A stretch of DNA of 64,000 nt from Fusobacterium ulcerans. GTDB taxonomy: Bacteria > Fusobacteriota > Fusobacteriia > Fusobacteriales > Fusobacteriaceae. The first letter of the stretch is position 1, and each line of letters begins with the position of its first letter. The stretch covers positions 186,001 to 250,000 of the forward strand of contig NZ_CP028105.1 in assembly GCF_003019675.1 (NCBI RefSeq), written 5' to 3'. The notes beneath the pieces were generated by a model. That model was not told the origin of the DNA, ran no database searches, and saw only the letters and a program-made list of their open reading frames with translations. Positions 9,958-14,448 of the stretch are shown piece after piece. The translations under genes were made by a program, and so were the position numbers.

Positions 9958-10032
9958 AATTTTTTAGCAGAGAGGAATTAAAAAAGCGAGAAAATAAAAA
10001 AAATATTTCCACAAAAAAAGAATAGAATTAAA

Positions 10033-10066
10033 AAAAATCCTCAGTAGAAACCTGCTGAGGATTTTT
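10033..10066. terminator. Bidirectional terminator
   Basis: A perfect 12-bp stem (10033-10044 / 10055-10066) is flanked by an A run and a T run. It ends the 7604-9957 transcript and would also stop leftward transcription from the promoter at 10182-10210 after roughly 140 nt. Confidence 0.9.
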
Positions 10067-10093
10067 GTATTTAAGGTACATCTGAAATATTCA

Positions 10094-10278
10094 CATTTAT
10101 ACACAAACGCGAACACTTATATTTTGATTCACCTAAAAATTTCTTTAACTCACAAATTATCGCTGTATACTCACATGGTAGATGATACATTATTTTCAAA
10201 AAAAAGTCAATATTTTAAATTTAAATAATATTCTCTAAAATTAATAAATAAGGCAGTGTTCGCAAAAGTGTATAAATG
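10094..10278. repeat. 24-bp inverted repeats flanking a promoter: putative invertible phase switch
   Basis: The left repeat is CATTTATACAC-AAAC-GCGAACACT (10094-10117). The right repeat, read on the minus strand, is CATTTATACAC-TTTT-GCGAACACT (10255-10278). All 20 outer and inner arm bases match; only the 4-bp centre differs. The enclosed 137 bp carry TTGACT-N17-TATCAT on the minus strand (10182-10210), pointing away from the autotransporter, and a weaker TTTAAC-N16-TATACT on the plus strand (10144-10171). Inversion between the repeats would turn the strong promoter toward the autotransporter. The differing centres are a caution. Confidence 0.5.
10182..10210 (-). promoter_or_regulatory. Near-consensus promoter directed away from the autotransporter
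   Basis: TTGACT (10205-10210 on the complement), exactly 17 bp, TATCAT (10182-10187). No minus-strand gene lies downstream; transcription would run into the bidirectional terminator at 10033-10066. Confidence 0.6.
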
Positions 10279-10396
10279 CGTACAGTTTAAAAGTTGATTT
10301 AGTTTTAAAATTTTAGAATAACTAAAATATTGGATTTTGAGAATTTTATAAAATTGAATTTTTTAATATTAATTTTAAAATACATAGGGGGAAAAG

Positions 10397-13300
10397 ATGA
10401 TAGGAAAATTATTAAAAATGGTAAAAAGCAGCAACAAAAAAAGAGGGAGAAATATTACAATAGGAGCAGTAGTAGGAATGCTTCTGTCTTGCAGTTCTGT
10501 AATGAAAGCAGAAGAATTTCTATGGATAAGAGGCAACGGAGGAGGAATAGAATATAATACAGCAGTAACTAATGATAAGGATGGAACTGATGGTAATTGG
10601 AGTAATGCGAATCCATATTCTGAAAGAAACACAATGGAAAATGGAACTTACACAAATAATATAACACTATCAGGAACAGATAATGGGAATAGGATTGGTT
10701 ATGGACTAAGATTTAGTGGAGATATAAATGGATTAAATTTTGTAAATAATGGAAATATAAATGCTAATATTACTAACTCTGGGAATTCTTCTTATGGAAT
10801 ATATGTAGATTCAGCAGAAAATATGGGAGATATAGAAAATAATGGGAATATACAAGCTGTAGTATCTGGTGGTTATAGTGGTAGTGGAATATATATATCA
10901 AGTACTGGAAAGATAGGAAATATAATAAATTATGGAAATATAAGTACTTTTAGAAATGGGGAATTCCAAAGATATCACTATGGAATATATATAAAGTCTG
11001 AAGTTGGAGATGTAATAAATTATGGAAATATAAATTGTAATGATATTAGTACTAATATTAGTGATATTACTGGTATAAGTGTATATGATAATAAAAAAAA
11101 TATAATAAATTATGGAAATATATTAGCAGGTGCTCCTAATGATACTTATGGTGATGCTATTGGAGTGAGGAGTGCAGGTGGAGATGGAAATATAGTAAAT
11201 AATGGAGTTATAAGATCTTATTCTGGTGATGAGAGCTATGGAATAAATGTAAATAATATAGGAAATATAATAAATAATGGAAGTATAAGTGCTTTTGCTA
11301 GCGACTTTACTAATTATTCTAATATGATGAGGGATAAATTTGGAATAATTTTATCTGGGGGTTCAAAGGTAGGAAATGTAGTGAATACAGGGGTTATTTT
11401 TGGAGGAAAAGGAATAATAGAGATTCGTGAAAATGGGAATATAGATTTAGTAAGTAATTGCGGGATGTATATAGTGGGATTTGGAGCTTCAATTACTTCT
11501 GGTGTGGGTAATGCTACAACTACTAAAGATTATGGAATGCATATAACAAATATAAATAATAAAACCGATAATGGTGCAGTGAGTGAAGATCAGGATTTTG
11601 TTGTAACATTGGGAGATGAGGCAGAAGAGCTTGCTGGTGCTGGTGGTAAAACAACAGTAACAATGGGGTTTGATGGAAATAAAGAATTAGAAAGAGAGAT
11701 GACTATAAAGAATGCTACATTGAAAGGAGAGTCAGGAACAGCAATAGCAACTAACACTATTGAATTTTCAGGTTCAGAAAATTATAACAATCATATACTA
11801 AATGGAAAATATAATACAATAACTGTCAAAGATGATGGAGAAATAGAAGGTTCTGTAATAAATGCATTTGGTACAGCTGTTCTATTTGGTGATAATGGGA
11901 AAAAGCTTACTTTGTCAGGGTCAATAGTAAATGGCGGAGTTTCTAACATACTTCTTGAAAGGAAACCTACATTAGGGACTTCCATAGAGGGAAGTAATGA
12001 TGGAGATATACTGGTGCTTCAAGCTGGAACAATTACTTATGAAGAAGCTGGAACTAAAAAACTTCAAAATACTATTATAAATGGAAATATAGCATTAGGG
12101 AAAGGAAACGACACTCTTACACTAGGTAATGGAACTATTGTGAATGGAATTCTTGATGGTGGAAGTGAAGATGCTGGAGGAATTGAAAATGACATTCTTA
12201 ATCTAGGAATGGCATCAGATCCAAATACAGCTGAAAATATAAATATTCTACATGATATAACTAATTTTGAAACTATAAACATACTGACTAAAACTACTCT
12301 ATTTGAAAAGACACTGGAAAATAAAGCTTTAAGTATAACAGGGGCAAGTGAGATAAAAATAGGAAAAGCTGGAGAACTTCTTTTAAGACTGAATATAACT
12401 GATTTAGATAGTAATGGGAAAATAAAAGGTCATGCACTATATAAAAATGCTAGAACTATTTCTACTGAAGGAGGAAAGCTGGTATTAGTCCTTAATGGAG
12501 CAGGAAATAAAAGTATTGTCGATTTTAAAGATAATAGTTTAAATGATAGTTTAAAAACAGCTTTTGAAACAGAGAATGAAAATGAGGTAAATTTCGTTAC
12601 ATCATCACTGCTTCACCATGTAAAAAGATTATCAGGTAATGAGGTAGAAATTTTAGTTAGAGAAAAAGTTCCTGAAATTCTTAAATATAAAAAATTAAAT
12701 GAAATATATCAAGGAATTATATCTGTTGATGGAGTAGGAAATTTCAATGTAGGAGAAAATGATGAGGAAATTTCATTGTTTTTAGGATATTTGAATGATA
12801 TCTATGCTGGAAATCCATATTCATACTCTAGTGAACTTTCAAGAAAATCAACAGGAATGTTTAGAGATATTGTAACAGAGAATATCTTCAGACCAGAAAC
12901 AAATAAATGGATGATACATGGGGGATTAACTCATGTAGATGGTGGAACTAAAGATACTTACTATGGAAAAGGATATTATACTTATGACATAGGAAGCAAT
13001 GATATGGATGCAGATACTAAAATAACTGGAGCATATATGCTTGGAGAGTATGGAATATCTGACACATTGACTTCTGGTGTAGTAATCGGAGGAAACAAAC
13101 TTAAATCTGATCTGTCTAATGGTTCTAAAGTAGATGGAAGTGCAATGTATCTTGGAGCTTATGCTAAAAAATATGTAGGAAATCTAAAAGTAACAGCAGG
13201 ATTAGGATTCCAGTATGGAGATTATGACGCTGACAGAATGGCAGTAAATAAAGTAGCTTCTGATTCAGCAAAATCAGTAATGAGCTATTCATCAAGTTAC

Positions 13301-13819
13301 AATGATATAACTTATGATATTTATTTTAATGGAAGATATTCTAATCCTATAGGAGAAAACCTATTCCTAGAGCCATACACAACTTTATCATACACATATG
13401 TAGATCAAGATGGAGCTGATGAAGGAAGCAAAGATTTATCTCTAAAGACAGATTCTAAGTCATTTGACTACACAGTTGGAAAAGTGGGAGTAGACCTTAA
13501 AAAAGTTATTCCACATGAAAAGGGTAAAAGTACACTTTCAGCTGGTGTAAGCTATACAAGAATATTTAGTGGAGCAGATGAGGAATATATCACTGGAAAA
13601 TTCAAAGGAAAGTCAGCAAAGGATTTCGATATTCTAGTTGCTCATAAAAATGAACATAGTATAGGATTAAATGCTAAATATGCTCTTGAATTAGAAAATG
13701 GAATAATCTTTGATGTAAAAGGAACTTACTCTGTAGAGAGAGACTCGAACAACAATTCAGGAAAAAATAAGACTAAAGGTGAATGGATAGTTGGAGCAGG
13801 TTTAGGCTACAAGTTTTAA
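10397..13819 (+). CDS. Type V autotransporter, large outer-membrane surface protein
   Basis: A 1140-residue protein. The N-terminus has an extended signal sequence (basic first 18 residues, then ITIGAVVGMLLSCSSVMKA, cleavage near residue 38). Residues about 40-850 form a repetitive passenger with Gly/Asn-rich strands such as NIINYGNI, VINYGNI and NIVNNGVI, as in a beta-helix. Residues about 870-1140 form the autotransporter barrel, ending in the aromatic outer-membrane terminus GLGYKF. The gene starts behind GGGGG and has its own terminator at 13851-13875. The upstream inverted repeats suggest ON/OFF control. The ligand or adhesion target is unknown. The passenger carries three exact 20-bp repeats at DNA level. 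Confidence 0.9.
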   Translation: MIGKLLKMVKSSNKKRGRNITIGAVVGMLLSCSSVMKAEEFLWIRGNGGGIEYNTAVTNDKDGTDGNWSNANPYSERNTMENGTYTNNITLSGTDNGNRIGYGLRFSGDINGLNFVNNGNINANITNSGNSSYGIYVDSAENMGDIENNGNIQAVVSGGYSGSGIYISSTGKIGNIINYGNISTFRNGEFQRYHYGIYIKSEVGDVINYGNINCNDISTNISDITGISVYDNKKNIINYGNILAGAPNDTYGDAIGVRSAGGDGNIVNNGVIRSYSGDESYGINVNNIGNIINNGSISAFASDFTNYSNMMRDKFGIILSGGSKVGNVVNTGVIFGGKGIIEIRENGNIDLVSNCGMYIVGFGASITSGVGNATTTKDYGMHITNINNKTDNGAVSEDQDFVVTLGDEAEELAGAGGKTTVTMGFDGNKELEREMTIKNATLKGESGTAIATNTIEFSGSENYNNHILNGKYNTITVKDDGEIEGSVINAFGTAVLFGDNGKKLTLSGSIVNGGVSNILLERKPTLGTSIEGSNDGDILVLQAGTITYEEAGTKKLQNTIINGNIALGKGNDTLTLGNGTIVNGILDGGSEDAGGIENDILNLGMASDPNTAENINILHDITNFETINILTKTTLFEKTLENKALSITGASEIKIGKAGELLLRLNITDLDSNGKIKGHALYKNARTISTEGGKLVLVLNGAGNKSIVDFKDNSLNDSLKTAFETENENEVNFVTSSLLHHVKRLSGNEVEILVREKVPEILKYKKLNEIYQGIISVDGVGNFNVGENDEEISLFLGYLNDIYAGNPYSYSSELSRKSTGMFRDIVTENIFRPETNKWMIHGGLTHVDGGTKDTYYGKGYYTYDIGSNDMDADTKITGAYMLGEYGISDTLTSGVVIGGNKLKSDLSNGSKVDGSAMYLGAYAKKYVGNLKVTAGLGFQYGDYDADRMAVNKVASDSAKSVMSYSSSYNDITYDIYFNGRYSNPIGENLFLEPYTTLSYTYVDQDGADEGSKDLSLKTDSKSFDYTVGKVGVDLKKVIPHEKGKSTLSAGVSYTRIFSGADEEYITGKFKGKSAKDFDILVAHKNEHSIGLNAKYALELENGIIFDVKGTYSVERDSNNNSGKNKTKGEWIVGAGLGYKF
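10923..11122 (+). repeat. Three exact 20-bp repeats in the autotransporter passenger
   Basis: TAATAAATTATGGAAATATA occurs at 10923-10942, 11013-11032 and 11103-11122, 90 bp apart each time, encoding the INYGNI strand motif. The spacing is a multiple of three, so recombination between copies would remove or add 30 residues in frame. Confidence 0.75.
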
Positions 13820-13898: not shown

Positions 13899-14189
13899 AT
13901 GACAGAAGGGGAGTTTATAAGATTCTATAAAAAAAGAAATAAAATCAAAAATCATAAAGCAGTAAAAGAAAAAATAGATTTATTCTGGGATGTACTGCTG
14001 AAAGCTTTAGATGAAGATAAAAAAGTAGCATTGCAAAACTGGGGAGTATTTGAAAAAAAAGAGAGAAAAGCTAGAAAAGTACTGATGCCTATGTGGGAGG
14101 AAGCAGGCTATACCGAACCTAAAGAGGCAGTAAAGTTCAAAGCAGGAAAAGCCCTTGTGAAAATAGCCAATGGTGATAAAGATGAATAA
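13899..14189 (+). CDS. Divergent HU/IHF-like DNA-binding protein
   Basis: A 96-residue protein with the HU fold pattern: a helical N-terminal half (MTEGEFIRFYKKRNKIKNHK to VLLKALDEDKKVAL), then the strand NWGVFEKKERKARK, and the C-terminal VKFKAGKALVKIANG. The DNA-intercalating arm usually holding an R/K-N-P tip is replaced by VLMPMWEEAGYTEPKEA, so the DNA-bending mode may differ. It starts behind AAAGGGG and overlaps the next HU-like gene by 8 bp, suggesting a heterodimer. It follows an autotransporter, which is unusual for a nucleoid protein. Confidence 0.75.
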   Translation: MTEGEFIRFYKKRNKIKNHKAVKEKIDLFWDVLLKALDEDKKVALQNWGVFEKKERKARKVLMPMWEEAGYTEPKEAVKFKAGKALVKIANGDKDE

Positions 14190-14448
14190 AAAAGAGATGG
14201 CAAAGCTATATCAAAAAATGACTTCAGAGAAAATTTCAATAATGGAAGCAAAAGAAGAGATAGAAGAATTTCTTGAAACAGTAAAGGAAGCTATCGCCTT
14301 AGATGGAGAGGTAAGATTTCCCAAAAGAGGGGCATTTGAAATACTCACAAGACAGCCTAGATTAGTAGCCAATCCTATAACCAAAGAACAGATGAAGATT
14401 TATCCAAAGAAAACAGTGAGGTTCAGAGCATCCAAAAAGATGAAATAA
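14182..14448 (+). CDS. HU/IHF-family DNA-binding protein
   Basis: An 88-residue protein close to canonical HU length (90). It has the amphipathic helices (EAKEEIEEFLETVKEAIALD), the strand signature FPKRGAFEIL, the arm tip ANP in VANPITKEQ, and the C-terminal VRFRASKKMK. The frame is open from ATG 14170; I place the start at ATG 14182 (MNKKEMAKLY), as in other HU proteins, with GGTGAT upstream. It overlaps the preceding divergent HU gene, so translation is probably coupled. Confidence 0.85.
   Translation: MNKKEMAKLYQKMTSEKISIMEAKEEIEEFLETVKEAIALDGEVRFPKRGAFEILTRQPRLVANPITKEQMKIYPKKTVRFRASKKMK

Follow-up and report, generated by a model that had tools for sequence, protein, structure and literature searches.

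A probable invertible promoter cassette, in the OFF orientation, ahead of an autotransporter and two HU/IHF-like genes in Fusobacterium ulcerans

Results

The region upstream of an autotransporter gene in Fusobacterium ulcerans is best read as a site-specific invertible promoter cassette (an inverton) in the OFF orientation, controlling a probable operon that encodes the autotransporter and two HU/IHF-like proteins; we place the probability of this reading at roughly 87%. The locus lies in the window, the whole 64,000-nucleotide stretch of DNA that was analysed, and five-digit positions given without a locus name refer to it. An earlier note on this DNA had proposed an invertible promoter that is OFF in the assembly, and that main proposal is supported by a family of recombination sites with matched cores and by homologous cassettes in both orientations. 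Besides these, we observed a clade-restricted co-occurrence of the sites with a 198-amino-acid tyrosine recombinase, and pairs of HU/IHF-like genes linked to the cassettes. That the window locus itself still switches is inferred.

Structure of the window cassette

The 24-bp inverted repeat reported previously was the best one in positions 9961–10396, with arms at 10094–10117 and 10255–10278 (20 of 24 bases identical) enclosing 137 bp, and none of 60 dinucleotide shuffles scored as well. The minus-strand sequence TTGACT-N17-TATCAT (10210..10182), which the note had singled out as a strong promoter, was likewise the top promoter-like site of the stretch examined; it points away from the autotransporter (OFF), and TTGACT-N17-TATNAT is kept in most paralogues. 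This arrangement shows one feature expected of an inverton, inverted repeats on either side of a segment whose promoter points outward and which lies ahead of a gene. A weaker inward promoter, which had been raised as an objection, is indeed present but scores below the outward one, so that the objection is eased. The hairpin described at about 10033–10066 can form on either strand (-21.2 and -16.0 kcal/mol; z -7.7 and -5.2) and has a comparable counterpart in the equivalent place of paralogous cassettes; its function as a bidirectional terminator is inferred.

The functional unit at each end of the cassette is wider than the 24-bp repeat, being a 26-bp dyad site with the 6-bp core ATACAC, of the family GTTCKCWWWW-core-WWWWGMGAAC. 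The left site, ATTCACATTT-ATACAC-AAACGCGAAC, occupies 10089..10114 on the plus strand (core 10099–10104), and the right site, GTACGCATTT-ATACAC-TTTTGCGAAC, lies inverted at 10258..10283 on the minus strand (core 10268–10273), its core being the left core inverted. Between the cores lies the predicted invertible segment, 10105..10267. The centres of the 24-bp repeats do differ (AAAC and TTTT), as had been pointed out, but these bases are site positions 17–20, which belong to the arm, and other pairs differ there too. The mismatch was dropped as an argument against inversion because it falls outside the 6-bp core.

Downstream, on the plus strand, the controlled gene encodes an autotransporter of 1140 amino acids (10397..13819; PF03797, E 2e-26). 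It is followed, probably in the same operon, by a tandem pair of genes for HU/IHF-like proteins, the first of 96 amino acids (13899..14189; PF00216, E 5e-14, with a match to the IHF-beta model below the cut-off) and the second, which overlaps the first, of up to 92 amino acids (14170..14448; IHF-alpha model, E 4e-11, below the cut-off; NP arm motif kept).

Inversion of the segment in silico gave the outcome foreseen in the note, with the promoter on the plus strand at 10162–10190, its -10 element at 10185–10190 and a start near 10197, approximately 200 nt before the autotransporter ATG. According to the mechanism that we propose, a tyrosine recombinase acting in trans would exchange strands within the 6-bp cores of the two 26-bp inverted sites, and this exchange would flip the ~163-bp segment. 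In the flipped state, transcripts from the strong promoter would begin near 10197 and proceed toward the autotransporter; in the OFF orientation of this assembly, the transcript is predicted to run into the hairpin at 10033–10066.

A family of recombination sites in four Fusobacteriota genomes

A search of the complete 3.54-Mb genome with the window region identified six more full-length copies at 76–77% identity (79–84% over the cassette alone), together with others that were partial or rearranged. The 26-bp dyad site derived from these copies, GTTCKCWWWW-RTATAY-WWWWGMGAAC, occurs 28 times in the genome with at most one mismatch, versus no occurrence of a reversed-pattern control. Paired sites 142–206 bp apart define at least 22 cassettes, so the earlier finding stands but is larger in scope than the single cassette it described. 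The genes downstream of cassettes encode autotransporters, an outer-membrane beta-barrel protein, two bacterial sugar transferases (PF02397), a duplicated MBOAT acyltransferase and an HU/IHF-type pair; the genome has 32 autotransporters in all. Acting together, the cassettes (22 or more) may phase-vary surface proteins, polysaccharide-synthesis genes and HU/IHF-like genes.

Sites were present in four of 98 Fusobacteriota genomes (the window genome, G008, G009 and G010). Across ~85,000 species genomes, from which the genome itself and near relatives may have been left out, the site pattern gave only four stray single matches, in unrelated metagenome-assembled genomes, and viral contigs yielded one stray match. 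The window promoter was not found in viral contigs, nor the window cassette in plasmids.

Some members of the family have been rearranged. The autotransporter leaders near 2753751 (L017) and ~1661413 (L018) each carry a single hybrid site and lack the invertible segment, as if it had been deleted between two sites; these autotransporters would have lost their switchable promoter, and dead switches thus occur. Another locus (L015) contains three recombination sites (2933960, 2934130 and 2935006). An IS200/IS605-like transposase gene separates the third from the second, and the locus may be a double switch that the insertion disrupted.

Cores are matched within pairs of sites

In the core comparison, pairs were chosen on the outer 16 bases only, and the two sites were then compared base by base. 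The six central bases were identical within 46 of 50 pairs (46 distinct real pairs from four species), and the four that did not match were chance partners and not site-like. Random re-pairing gave at most 14 core matches of 50 in 2000 trials. Between pairs the core varied, the forms being ATACAT, ATATAC, ATATAA, ATACAC, ATAGAT, TTACAA and GTATAA, with a core and its reverse complement counted as one. A core that is identical within pairs and variable between them is a hallmark of site-specific recombination. Cassettes that are related cannot be counted as independent cases, and the matching is partly inherited among paralogues; yet several different cores are each matched.

These data bear on the alternative that the repeats are a fixed operator pair, bound by a looping repressor or by HU/IHF-like proteins around a divergent promoter that never inverts. 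The dyad form of each site is common among operators, HU/IHF-like genes are linked to the cassettes and, as described below, most autotransporter cassettes have one orientation, all of which such a pair would accommodate. However, a variable core that is matched within pairs is what strand exchange would be expected to produce, and not binding alone. We regard a fixed operator pair as very improbable, and it was rejected on the inverted interiors of homologous cassettes.

Homologous cassettes occur in both orientations

The cassettes at 287996 and 912838 have collinear flanks (75–78% identity), and the interior of one matches the other at 96% when inverted versus 42% when read directly; the break coincides with the core. 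Inverted interiors of this kind, starting at the core between the collinear flanks of homologous cassettes, are what argues against fixed operators. A second pair, 2279892 and 2099443, gave 86% identity inverted versus 58% direct, and a G009 locus (L073) agrees with the cassette at 2279892.

The window cassette itself has an inverted relative in a related species, as comparison with other genomes, suggested in the note, bore out. Window positions 10090–10249 match 958577–958737 of G008 on the minus strand (75% identity, E 3.8e-22), and the adjacent autotransporter leader in G008 matches the window on the plus strand; the interior is therefore flipped relative to the gene, and in G008 TTGACT-N17-TATTAT faces its gene. 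OFF paralogues have the same orientation as the window segment. Occurrence of the segment in both orientations is thus met for the family (287996/912838, 2279892/2099443 and the window with G008 L064) and was not seen at the window locus itself. With no reads, second strain or expression data, flipping at that locus is inferred from the family.

The loci at 287996 (L048) and 912838 (L049) are sugar-transferase loci (PF02397) bearing the same cassette, one OFF and one ON. Their opposite states suggest that surface polysaccharide is switched too.

Most autotransporter cassettes are OFF

A strong promoter was recognisable in every autotransporter cassette scored for orientation. Among those of the window genome with a clear strong promoter, 12 were OFF, including that of the window, and one was ON; the corresponding numbers in G008 were seven and one, and all autotransporter cassettes examined in G009 and G010 were OFF. 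Counts for G008–G010 are lower bounds, taken only from loci with one near-perfect site. The cassette that drives an HU/IHF-like pair alone (1388331) was ON in the window genome, and each of the other three site-bearing genomes has an ON cassette ahead of a gene similar to its target.

The sole ON autotransporter cassette of the window genome (3448377; 3448378–3448547) directs TTGACA-N17-TAATAT toward its gene, and its interior matches the window family weakly, the inverted comparison being only slightly better. The leader or reading frame of the gene that it drives is interrupted by an IS110-family transposase gene (L036 3859–5127, equivalent to 3446858–3448126).

It could also be that the cassette was once invertible and that the window copy is now locked OFF, through degenerate sites or slow recombination, leaving the autotransporter effectively silent. 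The window sites are among the more degenerate, with two and three mismatches to the site pattern and 21 of 28 positions identical to each other, and switches do die, as at 2753751 and ~1661413, which have no interior and keep a single site. Against this, the core is identical in the two window sites, their arms can still be recognised and the reading frame downstream is intact; we consider a locked copy unlikely, though the chance of it is real.

HU/IHF-like pairs accompany the switched autotransporters

Matches to PF00216 numbered 55, 56, 48 and 58 in the four site-bearing genomes versus 4–15 in the other eight of the genus. Within the window genome, a tandem HU/IHF-like pair starts within ~600 bp after the beta-domain in 10 of 11 cassette-controlled autotransporters and in none of 17 without a cassette; the single exception among the 11 is the one broken by an insertion sequence. 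This count left out two MISNF-type loci and two autotransporters behind an empty site, and the loci are paralogues and not independent. The two members of the pair are of different sequence types; in one the NP arm motif is kept, and in the other the arm has diverged.

A role for these pairs in inversion is attractive, since fim inversion in Escherichia coli requires IHF (reviewed in PMC11868660). Linkage of the genes to the cassettes is not proof of function, because duplication of the whole unit could give the same linkage, and that the pairs assist or bias inversion is inferred without functional data. We offer only as a speculation, and a somewhat doubtful one, that every switchable operon encodes an IHF-like DNA-bending complex of two proteins, which would act on inversion of the operon's own or sister cassettes and provide both feedback and a display of a large autotransporter repertoire in which most members are OFF and few ON, and that the expansion of HU/IHF-like genes from ~4 to ~50 copies in the clade was driven by this coupling. 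In the literature searched we found no description of switched units carrying their own pair of DNA-bending proteins.

A 198-amino-acid tyrosine recombinase is the leading candidate invertase

The note had listed the lack of a recombinase gene in the window as a weak point, but tyrosine recombinases able to act in trans are encoded elsewhere, which eases it. The genome has nine PF00589 tyrosine recombinase genes; its only PF00239 match is a large serine recombinase of 497 amino acids. One of the nine encodes a protein of 198 amino acids (3280800–3281393), with a 75% paralogue at 2057860. Relatives at 73–98% identity were found only in the same four of 98 Fusobacteriota genomes as the sites, and the remaining genomes have homologues of at most 56% and no sites. 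The protein is 19% identical to FimB over 162 amino acids (E 1.6e-5) and aligns with FimB and FimE through the conserved arginine, histidine and tyrosine motifs. Its gene lies ~450 kb from the window cassette on the circular map, or further, and no cassette of this site type was found beside recombinase genes, homologues in other genera included.

This co-occurrence, confined to a single clade, is a lead and not proof; the protein is the leading but unproven invertase, its identification is inferred, and catalysis by any recombinase is supported only indirectly, by the matched cores. A different invertase, such as the genus-wide 189-amino-acid tyrosine recombinase, a XerC/XerD-type protein or an integrase, is a serious possibility, although not one that we would favour. 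There are nine genes to choose from, and the 189-amino-acid protein is likewise of small size, with an HU gene after it in this genome and in several other species. Xer sites in general have a 6-bp core between dyad arms, a plan that the cassette sites share. However, relatives of the 189-amino-acid protein occur genus-wide, including in species without sites, whereas the close 198-amino-acid protein occurs only where sites do.

Two further neighbourhoods were recorded. The gene for the 189-amino-acid recombinase (3006224–3006685; L031 1126–2085, equivalent to 3006125–3007084) precedes a canonical HU gene in an arrangement that recurs in several other Fusobacterium genomes. G010 consists of a 3.97-Mb chromosome and two smaller contigs, probably plasmids, which carry homologues of the 198-amino-acid recombinase (54–56% identity) and HU-like genes without invertible sites (L158 60356–60952 and 62617–63201; L159 39035–40003); no site pairs were found near these homologues.

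Discussion

If this reading is true, a gut Fusobacterium clade of the F. varium/F. ulcerans type uses a single family of recombination sites for phase variation of much of its autotransporter repertoire and of some polysaccharide genes, and the orientation of each cassette must be known before it can be stated which of its autotransporters a strain is expressing. The HU/IHF-like pairs linked to the cassettes would provide a convenient system in which to study how site-specific inversion is steered by DNA-bending proteins, and whether only a few surface proteins are displayed at a time.

No report of invertible promoters in Fusobacterium was found in the literature searched, although an entry in the tables of Jiang et al. 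2019 is not excluded. The 2017 paper on the genome and RNA-seq of F. varium Fv113-g1 (PMC5720691) describes 44 autotransporters, of which two were induced and six showed relatively high expression; inversion is not mentioned in it. Gut invertons have been catalogued by PhaseFinder (Jiang et al. 2019; PMC11892184), and the main groups given in the latter are Bacteroidota, Verrucomicrobiota and Firmicutes_A; the string 'fusobacteri' is absent from its text. The cassettes described here resemble those gut invertons (PMC11892184) in being invertible promoters that lie between genes, fall into groups by common repeat motifs and are often close to surface genes.

One close parallel is E. coli fimS, switched by FimB/FimE with IHF, in which short inverted repeats likewise flank a promoter, ahead of an operon for a surface structure. 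Both have a small tyrosine recombinase (~198–200 amino acids), here as a candidate, and IHF-type proteins, which are required in fim (PMC11868660) and only linked in the Fusobacterium cassettes. Unlike fimS, there are many cassettes and not one, the sites are 26-bp dyads with a variable core, the IHF-like genes lie inside the switched operon, and the candidate recombinase, which is not linked to the switch, shares only 19% identity with FimB over 162 amino acids. The fim-type feature of a FimB/FimE-like recombinase encoded beside the switch is not met at the window cassette.

The second parallel is the Mpi regulon of Bacteroides fragilis. Mpi is a small serine invertase, a feature not met in this genome, in which the 497-amino-acid protein was the only PF00239 match. 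As reported in PMC11892184, which cites Coyne et al. 2003, the regulon consists of invertible capsule promoters with related sites dispersed over many surface loci. One site family serving many dispersed surface loci is also met here, with 22 cassettes; unlike in the Mpi regulon, the switched genes are mostly autotransporters. In the way they work, the cassettes resemble both fimS and the multi-promoter regulon of B. fragilis, but they do not have the recombinase feature that defines either.
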